Assembly (NCBI GenBank): GCA_022822545.1
Contig: JAJEBE010000057.1
Coordinates: forward strand, 62,001 to 126,000
From: Anaerolineae bacterium
Lineage (GTDB): Bacteria > Chloroflexota > Anaerolineae > Aggregatilineales > Phototrophicaceae
Direction of reading: 5' to 3'
DNA length: 64,000 nt
In this document: positions 42,615 through 50,931 of the stretch, piece after piece
Numbering within the stretch: the stretch's first letter is position 1
Layout: each line of letters opens with the position of its first letter
The notes under the pieces: model-generated
What the model was told of the DNA's origin: nothing
What the model saw: only the letters and a program-made list of their open reading frames with translations
The model's database searches: none
Position numbers and translations under genes: made by a program

Positions 42615-42950
42615 CTATTCATCCGCCTCTAGCGCCAATTGACGAATCTCCGCGGCGCTGATGTCGGTGTCATCGGTCTTGGAATAGATGGTGAGCAGGG
42701 TGACGCGGTCGCTGAACTGCGCGTAGTAGATGACGCGGAAGCCGCCGCTCTTGCCTCGCTGAGCCGCCCGGTTGGGCAGACGTACTTTGTAGACGGCGTA
42801 GCCGACGCGCGGGATGCGTTGGCCGGGGCGCTGATCCCGTTCAAGCTGGTCAATCAGGCTATCGACTGTATCAATGGTCTTGGGATACTTGCGCTCGAGC
42901 CGCTCAAGCTTCTTGTCAAAAAGTGGATGATAGCTAACCGTGGTTGGCAT
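42615..42950 (-). CDS. RelE/ParE-family toxin
   Basis: A 111-residue protein of the RelE/ParE fold, whose members are ribosome-dependent mRNases or gyrase poisons. It has the N-terminal FDKKLERLERKYPKTIDTVD helix pair and the strands YAVYKVRLPNRAAQRGKSGGFRVIYYA with conserved basic residues, then LLTIYSKTDDTDISAAEI. The ATG at 42950 overlaps the end of the antitoxin by 17 bases. It is the second gene of the pair, as is usual for RelBE-like systems. Confidence 0.75.
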   Translation of the reverse strand: MPTTVSYHPLFDKKLERLERKYPKTIDTVDSLIDQLERDQRPGQRIPRVGYAVYKVRLPNRAAQRGKSGGFRVIYYAQFSDRVTLLTIYSKTDDTDISAAEIRQLALEADE

Positions 42951-43140
42951 CGTCGTAAATTCTTCGACGCATCGCTTCAAGACCCTCGCGCGCTGGTATC
43001 CCTTCTACACCTGCAAGCGTATCGCGAAGGGCGACGCGCAAGTCTTCGAGCAGTTCTTCTTTCGTCGGCTCGCGGTCGTCATCTTCCGCGAGGGCTGGCG
43101 GCGCTTGGGGCAAAGTCGGGTTCGGTTTGCCGGGATTCAT
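42934..43140 (-). CDS. antitoxin partner of the RelE-like toxin
   Basis: A 68-residue acidic protein. The N-terminal 20 residues are Pro-rich, followed by the helical TKEELLEDLRVALRDTLAGV and PAREGLEAMRRRI. This resembles small antitoxins of RelE-type pairs in which the second half wraps the toxin. The assignment rests mainly on the 17-base overlap with the toxin gene and on size. Expected to repress its own operon. Confidence 0.65.
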   Translation of the reverse strand: MNPGKPNPTLPQAPPALAEDDDREPTKEELLEDLRVALRDTLAGVEGIPAREGLEAMRRRIYDDANHG

Positions 43141-43256: not shown

Positions 43257-44267
43257 ATGACAATCAAACTGGGCATCATCGGCGCGGGGCGCATCGGCCG
43301 CGTCCACGCGGATACGCTGAGGACTCGCGTCCCCGGCGCGGAGGCGCTCGCCATCGCTGATATCTACGAAGCCTCCGCGAGATCGGCCGCCGCGGACTTT
43401 GGCATCCCCGATTACAGTGTCGACCCCGCCGAAATCATCCACAGCGGCGACATCGAGGCGGTTGTCATCTGCTCTTCCACCGATACGCACTGCCACTTCA
43501 TCAGCGAGGCCGCGCGCGCCGGCAAAAATATCTTCTGCGAGAAGCCGATCGCCTTCGACCTGGCGGAGATTGACGCGGCGCTGGCCGCCGTCGTCGAGGC
43601 GGGTGTACAGCTGCAGATCGGCTTCAACCGCCGCTTCGACAGCAATCACGCTCGCATCAAAAGCGCCATCGACGGCGGCGAGATCGGCCAGCCGCATACG
43701 CTGACGATCATCAGCCGCGATCCGGCGCCGCCGCCGATCGACTACATCAAGGTCTCCGGCGGCTTGATGATGGATATGATGATCCACGACTTTGATATGT
43801 GCCGTTTCCTGCTGGGCGAGGTCGAGGAGATCTTTGCGCTGGCCGATGTGATGGTCGACCCCGCCATTGGAGAAGCGGGCGACATCGACACGGCCAAGGT
43901 GATGCTGCGCTTCGAGAACGGCGCGATAGGCACGATCGAGAACAGCCGGCAGGCGGTCTACGGCTACGACCAGCGGGTGGAAGTCTTCGGCAGCGGCGGC
44001 GCCGTCAGCAGCGGCAACTGGCATCCCAACGCCGTCACGGTCAGCGATGCCGCAAGCGTCCGCCGGGACTTGCCGCTGAACTTCTTCATGGAGCGCTACA
44101 TGGACAGCTACGCCGCCGAGATGATGGCCTTCGTCGAGGCGATACGGGCGGGCGAGACGGTGCCGGTGGTCGGCAACGACGGGCGCGCGCCGGTGCTGAT
44201 GGCAATGGCGGGCATGCGCTCCATCGCCGAGAAGCGTCCGGTTCGGCTTGATGAGGTGGAGGCGTGA
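43257..44267 (+). CDS. iolG: myo-inositol 2-dehydrogenase
   Basis: A 336-residue Gfo/Idh enzyme that oxidises myo-inositol to scyllo-inosose with NAD+, the first step of inositol catabolism. It has LGIIGAGRIGRVHADTL (Rossmann), FCEKPIAFD (catalytic lysine near 97), GFNRRFD, ISRDPAPPP near 150 and SGGLMMDMMIHDFDMCRFLLG (catalytic Asp/His near 172-176). These closely match IolG rather than other Gfo/Idh proteins. It heads the iol operon: iolG, iolC, DinB-like, iolB, ATPase, DUF4435, iolD, all on the plus strand. iolE and iolA are not in this window. Confidence 0.92.
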   Translation: MTIKLGIIGAGRIGRVHADTLRTRVPGAEALAIADIYEASARSAAADFGIPDYSVDPAEIIHSGDIEAVVICSSTDTHCHFISEAARAGKNIFCEKPIAFDLAEIDAALAAVVEAGVQLQIGFNRRFDSNHARIKSAIDGGEIGQPHTLTIISRDPAPPPIDYIKVSGGLMMDMMIHDFDMCRFLLGEVEEIFALADVMVDPAIGEAGDIDTAKVMLRFENGAIGTIENSRQAVYGYDQRVEVFGSGGAVSSGNWHPNAVTVSDAASVRRDLPLNFFMERYMDSYAAEMMAFVEAIRAGETVPVVGNDGRAPVLMAMAGMRSIAEKRPVRLDEVEA

Positions 44268-44406
44268 CGATGTGGAAATGTCGCTTTTCCAACCCCACCC
44301 CGAGGCATCAGGGAGGGGCATTCAGTCACCGAACGCGGTGTGGTAATAGCGCAAGCAAGTCTCCTCCATTGCAATGGGGGAGATTTAGAGGGGGTTGGAG
44401 CCAGCC

Positions 44407-45420
44407 ATGAGCAAAACATACGACTCCCTGCACATGGGGCGCAGCTCCATCGACCTCTACTCCAACGACATCGGCGCGCCTTTCGTCGAGATCGAATCGT
44501 ACGCCGCTTATGTCGGCGGATCGCCGACGAATATCAGCGTCGGCGGGAAGCGGCTGGGATTGAAGACGGCGCTGCTCACCGCTGTCGGCGCTGACCCGGT
44601 GGGCGACTTCATCTTGCACTTTCTAAATAATGAGGGCGTGGAGACGCGCTACATCCCGCGCAAGCCCGAGCACCGCACCTCGGCCGCTGTCCTTGGCATC
44701 GAGCCGCCCGACAAATTCCCGCTGGTCTTTTACCGCGATAATTGCGCCGATATCAACTTGAATATCGATGATGTGCTGGCGGCGCCGGTGGGAGATTGCC
44801 AGGTCTTTCAATTCGCCGGCACCAACTTGAGCCGGGAGCCGAGCCGCAGCGCCACGCTGTTCGCGGCGGAGCAGGCGCGCGCGGCCGACGCGACCGTCGT
44901 CTTCGATGTCGATTTCCGGCCCGACCAATGGCATGATGTGCGCGCTTTTGGCGTGGTGGCGCGGGGGGCGCTGCGGCTGGTCGATGTCGTCATCGGCACG
45001 GAGGACGAGATCAACGCCGCCATGCTCAGCGACGCCTCGCAGATGGAAGTCACGCATTCGCAAGTCTCCGATACCAAAGTGGCGGGCGATACGCGGGGCG
45101 CTATCGAGTATATGCTGGGCATGGGGCCGAAGGCGGTGATCGAGAAGATCGGACCGGAAGGGGCGCGCATCCACCTGCGCGGCGGCGAGGTCATCGACGC
45201 GCCCGGCTTCCCGGTGGAAGTCACAAATATCCTGGGCGCGGGCGATGCCTTCGGCGGCGGCTTCATCTATGGGCTGGTCAAAGGCTGGGGCTGGTATAAA
45301 GCGGCGCGGCTGGGCAATGCCTGCGGCGCCATCGTCGTCACTGAGCACGGCTGCGCCAACTTCATGCCGACTATGGACGAGGTCGAAGCTTTCGTCGCGC
45401 CCTACGGCGGCTTGGATTAA
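44407..45420 (+). CDS. iolC: 5-dehydro-2-deoxygluconokinase
   Basis: A 337-residue PfkB-family kinase. The N-terminus HMGRSSIDLYSNDIGAPF and VGGSPTNISVGGKRLGLKTA (about 34-55) are characteristic of IolC. VTNILGAGDAFGGGFIYG near residue 275 contains the catalytic aspartate. IolC phosphorylates 5-dehydro-2-deoxy-D-gluconate in the inositol pathway. GGAG lies six bases before the ATG. The 139-base gap after iolG contains GC-rich repeats and may hold an internal promoter or processing site. Confidence 0.93.
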   Translation: MSKTYDSLHMGRSSIDLYSNDIGAPFVEIESYAAYVGGSPTNISVGGKRLGLKTALLTAVGADPVGDFILHFLNNEGVETRYIPRKPEHRTSAAVLGIEPPDKFPLVFYRDNCADINLNIDDVLAAPVGDCQVFQFAGTNLSREPSRSATLFAAEQARAADATVVFDVDFRPDQWHDVRAFGVVARGALRLVDVVIGTEDEINAAMLSDASQMEVTHSQVSDTKVAGDTRGAIEYMLGMGPKAVIEKIGPEGARIHLRGGEVIDAPGFPVEVTNILGAGDAFGGGFIYGLVKGWGWYKAARLGNACGAIVVTEHGCANFMPTMDEVEAFVAPYGGLD

Positions 45421-45432
45421 CTGAGGAGAGAC

Positions 45433-45951
45433 ATGGTTACTGAAACGAACGAAGAGGGCTGGATCACTTATATGAGCGGCGATGACCTGCTGGAGCGGGC
45501 CCGCGCCGAACGCGCCGAGCTGGAAGCGCTCTGGCTGGGCCTGGACAATGCCGAGATGACCCGCCGGCCCGGACCGCATCCGGAGTGGTCGGTCAAGGAC
45601 ATCATCGCCCATATCACCTGGTGGGAGCAAACGGCGACCAACTGGGTCTCGCGGGCTTTGACCGGCGAACTGCTGGCGCGCACGGAGACGCCGGACGAGA
45701 TCAACGCCCGCGTCTTCGCCGACAATTGCGACCTGCCGCTGAATACCGTGCTGGAGATGTTCGAGGCCAGCTTCCCGCTGCTGGAAGCGCTGATCAACCG
45801 CCTCAGCGATGAGGAAATCAACGATGCCGAGGTCTGCGATATTCGCGGGATGCCACTGCTTTATTTTCTGGTGGGCAATACCTTCGCCCATTACGCCGAT
45901 CATGTGGACGATTTGAAGGCTTATGCAAACCGCGTCAAAGGCGCGTCTTGA
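45433..45951 (+). CDS. DinB/ClbS-like four-helix protein
   Basis: A 172-residue protein of the DinB/YfiT superfamily, four-helix bundles with three metal-binding histidines. HITWWEQTATNWV (about 55-67) and FAHYADHVDDLKAY (about 151-164) supply the histidines. GPHPEWSVKDIIAHI and MPLLYFLVGN resemble ClbS/DfsB proteins and mycothiol/bacillithiol-type transferases. It lies in the iol operon, 12 bases after iolC, behind GAGGAG. It is not a known inositol enzyme; a detoxifying or thiol-transfer role is possible. Confidence 0.75.
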   Translation: MVTETNEEGWITYMSGDDLLERARAERAELEALWLGLDNAEMTRRPGPHPEWSVKDIIAHITWWEQTATNWVSRALTGELLARTETPDEINARVFADNCDLPLNTVLEMFEASFPLLEALINRLSDEEINDAEVCDIRGMPLLYFLVGNTFAHYADHVDDLKAYANRVKGAS

Positions 45952-46066: not shown

Positions 46067-46948
46067 ATGAAATACACAGCGGAAACCATGCTGATTAAAT
46101 CGAAGGACAGCGGCGAATCAGGCATCTTCGCCGAGGTCAGCGCCGGGCAGGCGGGCTGGGATTATCTCAACATGGCGGCCATGCGCCTGCGCCGGGGCGA
46201 GAGCTTCAGCGTGGAGACGCGCGAGCACGAAAACGCCACCATCATCCTGGGCGGGACCTGCGATATCGTCACGTCTGACGGCGAGTTCCTGAATGTGGGG
46301 CGGCGGCCCGATGTCTTCAGCGGCATGCCTTACGCGCTGTATATGTCGCGGCGCAAGCGATTCGAGATCAAGGCGACCAGCGACAAACTGGAATTCGCCT
46401 CTTGCTGGGTGCCGACCGATCAGGATTTTCCCACGCAACTGGTGAGGCCTGCTGATAGCGAGATTGAACTGCGCGGCGGCGGCAACGCTTCGCGGCAGAT
46501 CAACGGCATCCTCCCGCCCGGCTTCCACTGCCATCGCATCGTGGCGGTCGAGGTCTATACGCCCTCGGGCAACTGGTCGAGCTATCCGCCGCACAAACAC
46601 GATGTGCACCGCGAGGACGCCGACGGCAACCTGCTGGAAGCCGACCTGGAAGAGATCTACTTCTACAAGATCGATCATCCCGGCGGTTATGCGTATCAGC
46701 GCGTCTACAATGACGACCGCAGCATCGACGGCGTGATGATGGCGGGGAATCACGATACGGTGTTGGTGCCGGAGGGTTATCATCCGGTGGTCAGCGCGCA
46801 TGGCTATACGACCTATTATCTGAACTTCCTGGCGGGCAGCGCGCAGTCGCTGGCGAACAGCGATGATCCGGCGTATGAGTGGGTGAAGGGGACCTGGACG
46901 TTCGTGGATCCGCGCTTGCCGATTGTGCATTATGGGATGGAGGGGTAG
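46067..46948 (+). CDS. iolB: 5-deoxy-glucuronate isomerase
   Basis: A 293-residue bicupin enzyme converting 5-deoxyglucuronate to 5-dehydro-2-deoxygluconate. The motif SSYPPHKHDVH (about residues 175-185) gives metal histidines. EEIYFYKIDHPGGYAYQRVYND and DTVLVPEGYHPVVSAHGYTTYYLN are strongly conserved IolB blocks. RBS GAGGTG is upstream. The last codons (GGATGGAGGGG) double as the ribosome site of the ATPase gene that begins five bases after its stop. Confidence 0.95.
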   Translation: MKYTAETMLIKSKDSGESGIFAEVSAGQAGWDYLNMAAMRLRRGESFSVETREHENATIILGGTCDIVTSDGEFLNVGRRPDVFSGMPYALYMSRRKRFEIKATSDKLEFASCWVPTDQDFPTQLVRPADSEIELRGGGNASRQINGILPPGFHCHRIVAVEVYTPSGNWSSYPPHKHDVHREDADGNLLEADLEEIYFYKIDHPGGYAYQRVYNDDRSIDGVMMAGNHDTVLVPEGYHPVVSAHGYTTYYLNFLAGSAQSLANSDDPAYEWVKGTWTFVDPRLPIVHYGMEG

Positions 46949-46953
46949 GGCGG

Positions 46954-48162
46954 ATGCGGATTACGAAGATCTCTGTGAAGGGGCTGTTCGGCTATCTCGA
47001 CCACGAGATTCCGTTGAATCAGGAGTCTCGGATTACGATTATTCACGGTCCGAATGGGGTTGGGAAGACTGTGTTGATGCGGATGGTGCATAGTTTGTTT
47101 AACTTTGAGTATGAGTTTCTTGGCAAGATACCCTTTGGCTCCCTTACGGTCGAATTCGACAATCGTACGGGAATTCATGTAGCCAACGTAGAATCACACT
47201 CAAGGCTACTTATCGGAAAGGGGGATTTGTCGTTTCCTAGTGAAGATTTGAAGTCGTTTCTTAGTGAAGACGTGAAATTTAGGAATTCGTTTCCTTTTCC
47301 TATTGAAAACTGGGAATTTATGGTAACTCCAACAGACGACACAGTCTTTATGCTACGGACCAGTGTTGATAAGTATGAGGAACTGCTACCCATTGCTGCG
47401 GAAGTCCTTGGCAGCGGGTATATCCATTTTGAAGCGGGTACGAATTCATATTGGTTGGAAATCTTCTCAGACGACCGATCCGTAGAAGATCAACTTGCGG
47501 AAGAGGATCCTAGAATACTTGACAAAATGCTCACAGTGATTGATTTACTAGAAACTTACCCTGAAATACATAATGAAGTTTATGGCGAGATGCCTGATTG
47601 GTTTGCGCGTATAAGGCAGGATATTAAACTATGGCTTATTGATACTAGAAGACTGGTGAGCGACGTTGTCGATATTGGCGCATTGAAGGAGCATTACTTC
47701 TATGACGCTTACAGTGTCTACGCTATTCCAACAATTGAGTCCGCAACTATGGAAATTTATTCAAAAATCGCGGATTCGTCGAGGCTGCATAACGAGCGGC
47801 AATTATTTGAGCAAATCATCAATGAGCGACTACTGTTCAAGTCTGTAGCGATAGGTGATGAAGGATTAATCATTTTCAACGAAGATGGCGACGGATTGCT
47901 CTCTTGTAACTTATCGTCCGGTGAGCAACAGCTTCTCATTCTGTACTACCAACTCCTCTTTGAAACAGAGCCCGAGACACTCGTCATGATCGACGAACCC
48001 GAACTCTCGATGAACGTCGTTTGGCAGCGCAACTTCTTGAAAGACTTGCAGCGCATCATTGAACTCCGCAAGTTCGACGTCCTCATCGCCACGCACTCGC
48101 CACAGATCATCCATGATAAGTGGGATTGGATGGTGCCTTTGGGCGAAAAGGTGGATGATTGA
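46954..48162 (+). CDS. AriA-like ABC-type ATPase (PARIS-like defence)
   Basis: A 402-residue soluble ATPase of the AAA_15/AAA_21 (OLD/SMC-like) type. Walker A is HGPNGVGKT (31-39), the ABC signature is LSSGEQQ (320-326), Walker B is LVMIDEPELS (343-352), and the H-loop is ATHSP (379-383). Between them lies a 280-residue helical insertion. This layout and size, with a DUF4435 gene right after it, match AriA of PARIS, where AriA holds AriB inactive until a phage anti-restriction protein is sensed. The ATG is 5 bases past iolB. The middle is AT-rich: bases 47281-47340 are 23/60 GC against 44/60 in iolB 46141-46200, a sign of transfer. Other OLD-like systems are possible. Confidence 0.78.
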   Translation: MRITKISVKGLFGYLDHEIPLNQESRITIIHGPNGVGKTVLMRMVHSLFNFEYEFLGKIPFGSLTVEFDNRTGIHVANVESHSRLLIGKGDLSFPSEDLKSFLSEDVKFRNSFPFPIENWEFMVTPTDDTVFMLRTSVDKYEELLPIAAEVLGSGYIHFEAGTNSYWLEIFSDDRSVEDQLAEEDPRILDKMLTVIDLLETYPEIHNEVYGEMPDWFARIRQDIKLWLIDTRRLVSDVVDIGALKEHYFYDAYSVYAIPTIESATMEIYSKIADSSRLHNERQLFEQIINERLLFKSVAIGDEGLIIFNEDGDGLLSCNLSSGEQQLLILYYQLLFETEPETLVMIDEPELSMNVVWQRNFLKDLQRIIELRKFDVLIATHSPQIIHDKWDWMVPLGEKVDD

Positions 48163-48164
48163 CG

Positions 48165-49064
48165 ATGGAGTTGATGCAGCCCAGCGAATACGTCTCGGAG
48201 TTCATCTTGACGCGAAACAGGGACAAAACCAAGTCATTCGTGTTGGTCGAAGGCACAACCGACCGCGCGTTGTGGGCGGAGTACGCCGCCGACAACTGCC
48301 ATCTTCGCCCAGCTAAGGGCAAAGACATCATCATTGACGTACTCAATACGCCATTCCTGCGCGGACTACAAGGCATCGCAGGTATCATTGATTCAGATTA
48401 CTGGCTCATCACCAAAGCGGACGAACTTAGCACGGAGAATCTACTCTACGATGATTGCTGCTCGGACATGGAATCACTTCTGCTCAATTCGGACGCGCTC
48501 AAGAAAGTCTTGCGGCATTCCATCAATATTGATGACACGGAACAGATTCATCAATTTGCTGACAGACTGAAAGCAGAGGCGCAGCGCCTCGCAATCGAGT
48601 TTGGCTACTTTCGCTTGCTCAATCACTTGAAGGATTATGGTCTTCGCTGCAACGCGATTCGATTTGAAGACGTTATTGATTGCGCTGCCTTGGAACTTGA
48701 CAGAGTAATGGTCGCCAGCAAATTGTCGGGCGACAAGCCCGGGCTCACTGGCGAAGACTTGTTGCGGCAAGTCGACGAACTGAAAGATACATATTCGCCG
48801 GATGATGCCCGGCTCTGCCGCGGCAAAGATGTGGTCGCCATCATGGCGCATATCCTGCCGGCGCTCTTCAAAACCGAATTCGGCGCGGAATTGGATGAAG
48901 TTGGCTCAAGCCACATTACCGGTAAGGCTTTGGCTAAAGACTTGCGCATGGCTTATGAGTTTGGATACTTTATAGAGACTTCTTTGTTCGCTTGTATTAG
49001 GCGCTGGGAATGTGAAAATATTCCTTTTCGCATAATCAAAGAATCGCCTTATGAAAGGACATAG
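48165..49064 (+). CDS. AriB-like DUF4435 TOPRIM protein (PARIS-like defence)
   Basis: A 299-residue DUF4435 protein. It shows the TOPRIM nuclease signature: FVLVEGTTDR with the catalytic Glu near 29, and GIIDSDYW with the D-x-D pair near 76 and 78. SDMESLLLNSDAL near 100 is typical of DUF4435. In PARIS the released AriB nuclease cuts host tRNA-Lys and causes abortive infection. The ATG at 48165 is 2 bases after the ATPase stop (a TTG at 48159 would overlap it by four). Its last codons form the iolD ribosome site. The pairing with an AriA-like ATPase supports the call; no experiment does. Confidence 0.78.
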   Translation: MELMQPSEYVSEFILTRNRDKTKSFVLVEGTTDRALWAEYAADNCHLRPAKGKDIIIDVLNTPFLRGLQGIAGIIDSDYWLITKADELSTENLLYDDCCSDMESLLLNSDALKKVLRHSINIDDTEQIHQFADRLKAEAQRLAIEFGYFRLLNHLKDYGLRCNAIRFEDVIDCAALELDRVMVASKLSGDKPGLTGEDLLRQVDELKDTYSPDDARLCRGKDVVAIMAHILPALFKTEFGAELDEVGSSHITGKALAKDLRMAYEFGYFIETSLFACIRRWECENIPFRIIKESPYERT

Positions 49065-49068
49065 CAGC

Positions 49069-50931
49069 ATGAAAACCCAACGCCTCACCATGTCCCAAGC
49101 GCTGGTCAAATACCTCGCCGCGCAGCACGTCGCCCGCGACGGACAGGAAAACCGCTTCTTCGCCGGCATGTGGGGCATCTTCGGCCACGGCAATGTCGCC
49201 GGCGTCGGTCAGGCGCTGGAGCAATACGCGCCCGAACTGCGCTACTACCAATGCCGCAACGAGCAGGCGCAAGTCCTGACTGCGGTGGCTTATGCCAAGC
49301 ATCGCAACCGGCTGGCGGCTTTCGCTTGCGCCTCGTCCATTGGTCCGGGCGCGTCCAACATGATCACTGGCGCGGCGGTGGCGACGGTCAATCGCATCCC
49401 CGTCCTGATCTTGCCCGGCGATATCTTCGCCGAGCGCATCCAGGCGCCCGTCTTGCAGCAGGTGGAAAGCGAGCACAGTCAGGATTTCAGCGTCAACGAT
49501 TGCTTCAAGCCGGTCTCGCGTTATTGGGATCGCATCAATCGGCCCGAGCAGATCATCACGGCTTTGCCGGAAGCGATGCGCGTGCTGACATCGCCGGCTG
49601 ATACCGGCGCGGTCACGCTCAGCTTGCCGCAGGATATCCAGGCTTACGCTTATGATTATCCGGCTGACATGTTCGAGAAGCGCGTCTGGCAGATCCCGCG
49701 CAATCGGCCGGATGTCGCGGCGGTTCAGCGGGCGGCGCAATGGATCCGCGAGAGCGAGCAGCCCATCATCGTGGCTGGCGGCGGCGTCCATTACAGCGAT
49801 GCCCACGACGCCCTGGAAGCCTTCACGGCGCGGACCGGCATCCCCGTCACCGAAACGCAGGCGGGCAAGGGCGCGCTGCTCTATGACAATCCGGTCAACC
49901 TGGGCGCGGCCGGCGTGACCGGCACGGAAGGCGCCATCGCGCTGATGAGCGAAGCCGACCTCGTCATCGGCATCGGCACACGCTACAGCGATTTCACCAG
50001 CGCCTCCAACACCGCCTTCGCTCGTGAAGGCGCGCGCTTCATCAATATCAATGTCGCCGAGTTTGATGCCTACAAGAACAGCGCCTTGCCTCTGGTCGGC
50101 GATGCCCGCGTCACGCTGGAAGAACTGTCGGCGGCGCTTTCGGGCTATGCCGTCGCCGATGATTACCGCGCGCGCGTCCACGCTTGCAACCGGGCTTGGG
50201 ATGCCGAGGTCCATCGCATTTACAACCTGGAGCACGAGCCGATGCTCAGCCAGGGCGAGGTCATCGGCATGGTCAATACCCTGTCTGGCGCGGGCGATAC
50301 GGTGCTCTGCGCGGCCGGCAGCATGCCCGGCGACCTGCACAAGCTCTGGCGCACGCGCAACCGCAAGGGCTATCACCTCGAATACGGCTATTCGACCATG
50401 GGTTACGAGATCGCCGGCGGCTTGGGCGTCAAGCTGGCGGAGCCGGAGCGCGAGGTCTGGGTGCTGGTGGGCGATGGCTCTTTCTTGATGATGCACACCG
50501 AGATCGTGACGATGGTGCAAGAGGGCATCAAGGTGAATATCATCGTGGTTGATAATCACGGCTTCGCCAGCATCGGCGCCTTGTCGAAGAGCGTCGGCAG
50601 CGATGGCTTCGGCACCAAGTATCGCTATCGCAGCGACTCGGGCCAGCTCGATGGCGAGACCTTGCCCATCGATTTCGCCAAGAATTGCGAGAGCCTGGGC
50701 GCCCGCGTCATCCGCGCGCGCGACCGCGAGGAATTCTCCCGCGCTATGGCAGAGGCGAAAGCGCATCAGGGCGGGCCGGTCTGCATTGTCACCGAGGTCG
50801 ACCGGCGGCAGCGCGTCCCGGGTTACGGCTCCTGGTGGGATGTGCCGGTGGCGGAAGTCTCGGAGATGGAGGCGGTGCAAGCCGCCCGCGCCGATTATGA
50901 GGCGAACAAAGGGCGCGAAACCTACTATTAG
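49069..50931 (+). CDS. iolD: 3D-(3,5/4)-trihydroxycyclohexane-1,2-dione hydrolase
   Basis: A 620-residue thiamine-diphosphate enzyme that opens the ring of the diketone formed in inositol breakdown. The N-terminus TQRLTMSQALVKYLAAQ is typical. CRNEQAQVLTAVAYAK carries the catalytic Glu near residue 65. The ThDP-binding motif is VGDGSFLMMHTEIVTMVQEG...VVDNHG (about 466-500). The start at 49069 is preferred over 49051, which would overlap the DUF4435 gene, because it matches the family N-terminus. It is the last gene of the interrupted iol operon. Confidence 0.95.
   Translation: MKTQRLTMSQALVKYLAAQHVARDGQENRFFAGMWGIFGHGNVAGVGQALEQYAPELRYYQCRNEQAQVLTAVAYAKHRNRLAAFACASSIGPGASNMITGAAVATVNRIPVLILPGDIFAERIQAPVLQQVESEHSQDFSVNDCFKPVSRYWDRINRPEQIITALPEAMRVLTSPADTGAVTLSLPQDIQAYAYDYPADMFEKRVWQIPRNRPDVAAVQRAAQWIRESEQPIIVAGGGVHYSDAHDALEAFTARTGIPVTETQAGKGALLYDNPVNLGAAGVTGTEGAIALMSEADLVIGIGTRYSDFTSASNTAFAREGARFININVAEFDAYKNSALPLVGDARVTLEELSAALSGYAVADDYRARVHACNRAWDAEVHRIYNLEHEPMLSQGEVIGMVNTLSGAGDTVLCAAGSMPGDLHKLWRTRNRKGYHLEYGYSTMGYEIAGGLGVKLAEPEREVWVLVGDGSFLMMHTEIVTMVQEGIKVNIIVVDNHGFASIGALSKSVGSDGFGTKYRYRSDSGQLDGETLPIDFAKNCESLGARVIRARDREEFSRAMAEAKAHQGGPVCIVTEVDRRQRVPGYGSWWDVPVAEVSEMEAVQAARADYEANKGRETYY

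Follow-up and report, generated by a model that had tools for sequence, protein, structure and literature searches.

The window considered here, a stretch of 64,000 nucleotides from an Anaerolineae bacterium (GenBank assembly GCA_022822545.1, contig JAJEBE010000057.1, positions 62,001 to 126,000), contains an operon in which two adjacent genes, coding for an ABC-type ATPase and a DUF4435/TOPRIM protein, lie between iolB and iolD (Table 1). Since IolG, IolC, IolB and IolD each score above their own NCBIfam equivalog cut-off, the operon is assigned to inositol catabolism. The two genes are closely fitted into it, with gaps of 5 bp behind iolB, 2 bp between the two genes and 4 bp before iolD, for which the list of open reading frames (ORFs) offers an alternative upstream ATG at 49051. 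Their GC content of 0.42–0.50, compared with 0.61 and 0.64 in the 2-kb flanks, makes the pair AT-richer than its surroundings. The ATPase possesses the motifs GPNGVGKT (K38), LSSGEQQ (residues 320–326), DEPE (D347/E348) and THSP (380–383), and the partner the TOPRIM residues E29 and D76/D78; K38, D347 and E348 are invariant in a 57-row alignment of the ATPases, as are E29, D76 and D78 in a 59-row alignment of the partners. All the motifs named in the initial annotation of this locus, together with the 2-bp spacing, are therefore present.

The two proteins form a PARIS-like AriA-AriB pair, as that annotation had proposed. According to the available part of the paper of Rousset et al. (2022; PMC9122126), who described PARIS (AriA-AriB), the system is recognized by adjacent genes that reach at least 32 bits with AAA_15, at least 27 bits with AAA_21 and at least 27 bits with DUF4435; the window pair follows this rule with 58.9, 58.9 and 32.9 bits, respectively. 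The top PADLOC models are AriA for the ATPase (6.8e-23) and AriB for the partner (1.8e-9), and the nearest folds are again those of AriA and AriB (PARIS structures 8ux9 and 8v45–8v49), with an identity over the structural alignments of about 20% for AriA and about 10% for AriB. No non-defence family came nearer in the profile and structure comparisons. The resemblance to PARIS thus extends from the order of the adjacent genes, an ABC ATPase followed by a DUF4435/TOPRIM protein, to the folds and the conserved acidic TOPRIM residues, E29 of the window protein being the likely counterpart of AriB E26 by motif position rather than by residue-by-residue alignment. Unlike the known AriA, the window AriA is shorter (402 versus 464 residues) and has a hypervariable middle, and unlike PARIS carried by a P4-like satellite, the pair occupies a chromosomal slot of a catabolic operon.

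Table 1. Features of the inositol operon in the window (positions counted from its first nucleotide)
Feature	Positions	Strand	Remarks
68-aa acidic partner of RelE-type toxin	42934..43140	-	divergent to iolG
RelE-type toxin	42615..42980	-	PF06296 8.1e-7; divergent to iolG
iolG	43257..44267	+	above NCBIfam equivalog cut-off
iolC	44395..45420	+	TIGR04382 384.6 bits, cut-off 300 (tested from 44410)
DinB-like/DUF1706 gene	45433..45951	+	between iolC and iolB
iolB	46067..46948	+	left slot border; TIGR04378 315 bits, cut-off 205
AriA-like ABC-type ATPase	46954..48162	+	402 aa, ATG start; putative sensor of PARIS-family pair
AriA hypervariable middle	47128..47796	+	about residues 59–281; approximate, alignment-derived boundaries
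AriB-like DUF4435/TOPRIM nuclease	48165..49064	+	299 aa, ATG start; presumed effector; E29, D76, D78
iolD	49069..50931	+	right slot border; TIGR04377 916 bits, cut-off 715

Used as a query against 101 genomes, the window's own included and 34 of them belonging to its genus, the AriB-like protein gave 26 match rows that correspond to 25 loci, two rows being fragments of one broken gene. The matches are distributed over 23 genomes, namely 22 of the 34 from the genus and G054, from another genus of the same family, with two loci each in G016 and G023. An ATPase gene stands directly upstream of the AriB gene at all 25 loci, at a distance of -23 to +61 nt, and the pairing is nowhere lost among these relatives. 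Nineteen loci lie between iolB and iolD, or beside whichever of the two the contig shows; three others (G004, G018, G024) immediately precede a second Gfo/Idh/MocA gene in the same neighbourhood, two (G023:C96 and G016:C112) adjoin a PfkB-family sugar kinase, and in G054, where iolB and iolC are inverted, the pair is found upstream of iolD. The Chloroflexota origin guessed in the initial annotation agrees with the 11 named loci, all of which come from Chloroflexi or Anaerolineae metagenome-assembled genomes (MAGs), some of whose isolate codes presumably derive from marine sponge studies. Because the arrangement recurs in independent MAGs of several named projects, a chimeric assembly is unsupported. 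A single scan of viral contigs with the AriB alignment, of limited sensitivity, returned 67 pattern stretches and no relative. At G023:C96 a DNA methylase (N6_N4_Mtase 3.9e-41) and a 173-aa gene that matches no family (L043, 4492–5870) directly precede the second ariA-ariB pair and the kinase, a neighbourhood of restriction-modification (R-M) and PARIS genes beside a sugar gene. Further ATPase-DUF4435 pairs occur in the family at L045 6886–9269 (G024:C16), L139 2561–4962 (G049:C21) and L140 3334–5356 (G133), those of G024:C16 and G049:C21 outside catabolic operons.

Within the genus, the gap between iolB and iolD is a slot for defence genes, a hotspot common to the PARIS pair and R-M genes. 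Of the 34 genomes, 29 have an IolD orthologue (at least 78% identity) and five only a paralogue of about 46% identity or none. In 26 of the 29 the slot can be read, either upstream of iolD or, in G022, downstream of iolB; the other three (G003, G004 and G028) are lost to contig breaks at or within iolD. Defence genes occupy 25 of the 26: the pair in 18 (G000, G001, G002, G006, G008, G009, G012–G017, G019, G021, G022, G029, G030, G032), the pair together with a TdeIII R-M system in G023, the TdeIII system in four (G018, G024, G025 and G027, the last two cut by a contig edge beyond which a pair may lie), a 922-aa type IIG-like methylase in G011 and, in G026, seven codons resembling the 3' end of the AriB gene at a contig edge. 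The remaining slot, in G033, is empty and measures 135 bp. The TdeIII endonuclease (PF09520 2.5e-68) and its methylase (PADLOC MTase_II 1.7e-165) are clear assignments, unlike the type IIG-like label, which is weak (N6_Mtase 8.8e-8, PADLOC IIG 3.4e-6). The initial annotation had located the pair in a metabolic operon rather than in a defence island: the first part is borne out by the NCBIfam iol matches, and the second does not stand, the gap itself being a defence hotspot of the genus with R-M genes. No phage or satellite genes were seen at the slot. Upstream of the G006 pair, where iolB would be, stands one IS-like transposase fragment, the terminal part of a transposase-like frame (IS3-type on visual inspection; L042, 1–192).

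Type IIG-like genes are also found at other points of the operon. They occur in or at the iolG-iolC gap of nine genomes (both neighbours seen in G005, G008, G012, G016, G020 and G027, one in G010, G018 and G024) and, in G001, behind iolD. All told, the iol operon includes one or more defence or type IIG-like genes in 29 of the 34 genomes of the genus. Other type IIG-like copies reside in a cluster of amidohydrolase, CN-hydrolase and aldehyde dehydrogenase genes (G015 and G030; in G023 beside the amidohydrolase only) or in a PhyH/FAD-oxidoreductase cluster (G006 and G024), these neighbours having been identified with Pfam in G030 and G006 only. These copies, together with a G007 copy that has divergent neighbours and a TdeIII copy (G001:C9) outside any operon, count against a strict operon rule.

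Allele turnover in the slot is independent of the operon. Among the 18 genomes that combine a slot pair with a complete iolD, IolD identity gave a Mantel r of -0.01 with AriB identity (p = 0.54, n = 18) and of 0.10 with the AriA core (p = 0.16); between IolD and IolB, compared in 15 genomes, r was 0.49 (p = 0.0005). The outcome was the same on 19 genomes (171 pairs, G054 excluded). Each of the 14 genome pairs whose IolD proteins are 0.94–0.98 identical has AriB proteins only 0.29–0.58 identical; between G013 and the window, for example, AriB identity is 39% for an IolD identity of 98%. Conversely, G014 and G009, despite an IolD identity of 0.84, share 0.93 of the AriA core, 0.88 of its middle and 0.77 of AriB. 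Since AriB identity is unrelated to that of IolD, the alleles have been replaced rather than inherited along with the operon.

The hypervariable portion corresponds to the middle third to half of AriA, flanked by conserved ATPase halves. Over 139 sequences the modal-residue frequency is 0.28 in the middle versus 0.82 in the N-terminal part and 0.75 in the C-terminal part, and the middle has the lowest GC content of the pair (0.42). Computed per 20 residues between the window copy and its eight closest relatives, identity amounts to 0.88–0.96 in residues 1–40 and 341–400, mostly to 0.03–0.12 in 81–200 and to 0.07–0.09 in 241–280, with islands of 0.38 and 0.27 within 201–240. A replacement by unrelated domains was considered and rejected: among the 139 distinct sequences, excluding pairs with less than 70% shared core columns, the middle is recognizably related in 59 of 59 pairs at a core identity of at least 0.85 and still in 2359 of 4625 pairs at 0.70–0.80, where its median identity is about 27%. 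Since it stays recognizable while falling with core identity, the middle diverges fast. In the 18 slot genomes it is uncorrelated with AriB (r = -0.05), whereas the AriA core is correlated with it (r = 0.29, p = 0.016), a contrast which, for so few genomes, is suggestive of shuffling. Because the triggers of PARIS bind AriA, according to the available part of PMC12409363, this region is, by analogy, most naturally read as a sensor surface that changes fast. That the system may respond to a trigger other than the known one, as the initial annotation suggested, draws solely on this hypervariability.

Outside the genus, 31 iolD loci were read out of 52 family genomes with an IolD match, besides G054, which was retrieved for carrying the pair. 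None of the 31 has a match to AriA or AriB, so that the slot is particular to the window's genus and the pair is no conserved component of the iol operon beyond one lineage. At the 23 loci where iolB precedes iolD, the spacing does not exceed 501 bp in 18 (12–120 bp in 13, 216–261 bp in three, 453–501 bp in two) and reaches 701–798 bp in five.

Taken together, these data make us rather confident that the inositol-catabolic operon of the window holds a divergent PARIS system in a genus-specific slot whose contents are exchangeable and probably co-transcribed. By analogy with the Escherichia coli PARIS, whose AriA hexamer sequesters AriB (available part of PMC12409363, which also treats the mechanism of AriB), AriA would act as an ATPase sensor that holds the TOPRIM nuclease AriB inactive, a phage protein would be recognized via the fast-changing middle of AriA, and the AriB thus released would cleave tRNA and shut down translation, at the cost of the infected cell. 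The cassettes of the slot, i.e., PARIS alleles, TdeIII R-M genes and the type IIG-like methylase, replace one another irrespective of the history of the operon, and their simplest mode of expression would be read-through with the iol genes. In this respect, the iolB-ariA gap measures 2–6 bp at 8 of the 16 readable junctions, that of the window included, a distance too short to accommodate an intergenic promoter, which speaks for read-through and coupled translation; ariA and ariB are thus probably co-transcribed with the iol genes. A promoter/terminator scan gave no terminator-like site between the genes and two promoter-like sites, both on the minus strand, in numbers below those of shuffled sequences and hence uninformative.

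Several observations weigh against this interpretation. By sequence, even with a profile, AriB has no match in the PDB, and the AriB frame of G008 is broken into two pieces. The DUF4435 model reaches its cut-off at no more than 9 of the 25 related loci, so that the published PARIS rule, taken as written, would miss most relatives. The PtuA models of Septu and retrons follow AriA by a few orders of magnitude for the ATPase (5.7e-18). The five widest gaps outside the genus, all from another genus, contain a non-defence gene of the metallo-hydrolase type (225–254 aa; Lactamase_B_3 6.1e-40 in the one of five tested), so the gap tolerates genes there too. Divergence beside the slot is raised in some close pairs and not in others: over its first 60 nt, iolD is less similar than over the remainder in G000-G013 (0.88 vs 0.94), G000-G029 (0.82 vs 0.91) and G013-G014 (0.77 vs 0.91), and more similar in G030-G015 (0.98 vs 0.92), G032-G009 (0.95 vs 0.90) and G009-G017 (0.95 vs 0.91), the genus mean showing no gradient. 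With such mixed signals, homologous exchange through the flanks is only a candidate route for the cassettes. Finally, five of the 16 junctions have a 40–51 bp spacer with a TATAAT-like motif, and three a 67–91 bp spacer with a GC-rich inverted repeat. These longer spacers may give some alleles a processing site or, as is possible for those with the TATAAT-like motif, a promoter of their own, and alleles may accordingly differ in their dependence on the operon. The motif reads TATAAT in three of the five spacers (L029, L031, L032, L035, L036) and TATACT and TACAAT in one each, and the five alleles have an AriA of 453–471 aa. The inverted repeat CCCCTCTCCC...GGGAGAGGGG stands between iolB and ariA in G032 and G013 (L021 7105, L033 10520), with a related one in G019; the G032/G013 hairpin is absent from the window.

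Among the other explanations, a PARIS system for which the operon is merely a permissive landing site, with no functional or expression tie to inositol use, is a serious contender that we place somewhat below an even chance: it would account for the type IIG-like copies in other clusters, including the G007 copy with divergent neighbours, for the possible promoters of some alleles and for the PARIS-like pairs of G024:C16 and G049:C21 outside such operons, and it is countered by the junctions of 2–6 bp without room for a promoter. It is improbable that the pair represents a different defence branch, OLD/PtuA-like and with an effector that cuts DNA: the ATPase superfamily is common to PARIS and to the PtuA of Septu and retrons, but PtuA remains below AriA in fold and profile scores, the neighbours of the ATPase gene are the DUF4435 gene and iolB instead of a PtuB/HNH gene, and the ATPase and TOPRIM domains occupy two separate ORFs rather than the single polypeptide of the OLD/Gabija type. 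A working or regulatory role in inositol catabolism for proteins of AriA/AriB-like architecture, to which the tight co-directional placement between iolB and iolD and the G054 pair directly upstream of iolD in another genus would lend themselves, is very hard to reconcile with the 23 outside loci where iolB precedes iolD and the 31 devoid of AriA/AriB matches, with the replacement of the pair by R-M genes within the genus, with an allele history independent of IolD and with the two additional pairs next to a PfkB-family sugar kinase elsewhere in the genome.

Most descriptions of defence hotspots concern prophages, satellites and islands, and R-M genes are known to insert into operon-like clusters; like these insertions, the slot places defence genes within a host operon. 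As in the P2/P4 hotspots, where exchangeable defence systems including PARIS occupy a fixed place (available part of PMC9122126), the iolB-iolD slot is a single fixed site for interchangeable defences, PARIS among them. Unlike these hotspots, it is bordered by housekeeping catabolic genes, and its co-directional cargo is fitted between a stop and a start codon. The literature searched, which left subscription journals and preprints mostly outside, describes no inositol operon with a slot for defence genes, nor was a lineage-wide filling of a single gap by several unrelated defence types found in it; PMC12445080, in its available part, names iolD and phage defence and describes co-regulation by NolR, not a gene neighbourhood. 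PARIS itself being already known, what is new is the setting, i.e., a genus-wide exchangeable defence slot within a catabolic operon.

Other features of the region can be mentioned apart. Gene pairs related to the RelE-type toxin and its partner occur at the same position beside iolG in several members of the genus. Behind iolD, two genomes carry on the opposite strand genes of about 1600 aa or longer (L083 6959–11749, L084 8820–13799), to which a 263-aa fragment in L028, resembling a secreted repeat protein, is related.

As the pair, in very different versions, or R-M genes occupy nearly every readable related gap, the inositol operon seems to be a holder for interchangeable phage defences. 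A broader idea, put forward tentatively, is that catabolic operons serve as standing immune docking sites, with cassettes swapped between strains at set gaps in the inositol operon and co-transcribed with it, immunity thereby coupled to nutrients, and an AriA sensor diversifying independently of AriB, like a swappable receptor; if true, defence would be highest when cells feed and grow. Since DUF4435 passes its cut-off at so few loci, current detection undercounts such systems. The natural PARIS alleles, at least 18 in number, which share a conserved ATPase core and differ widely in their sensor regions, offer a test bed for recognition by AriA, and a slot of interchangeable cassettes in a housekeeping operon predicts an immunity under metabolic control.
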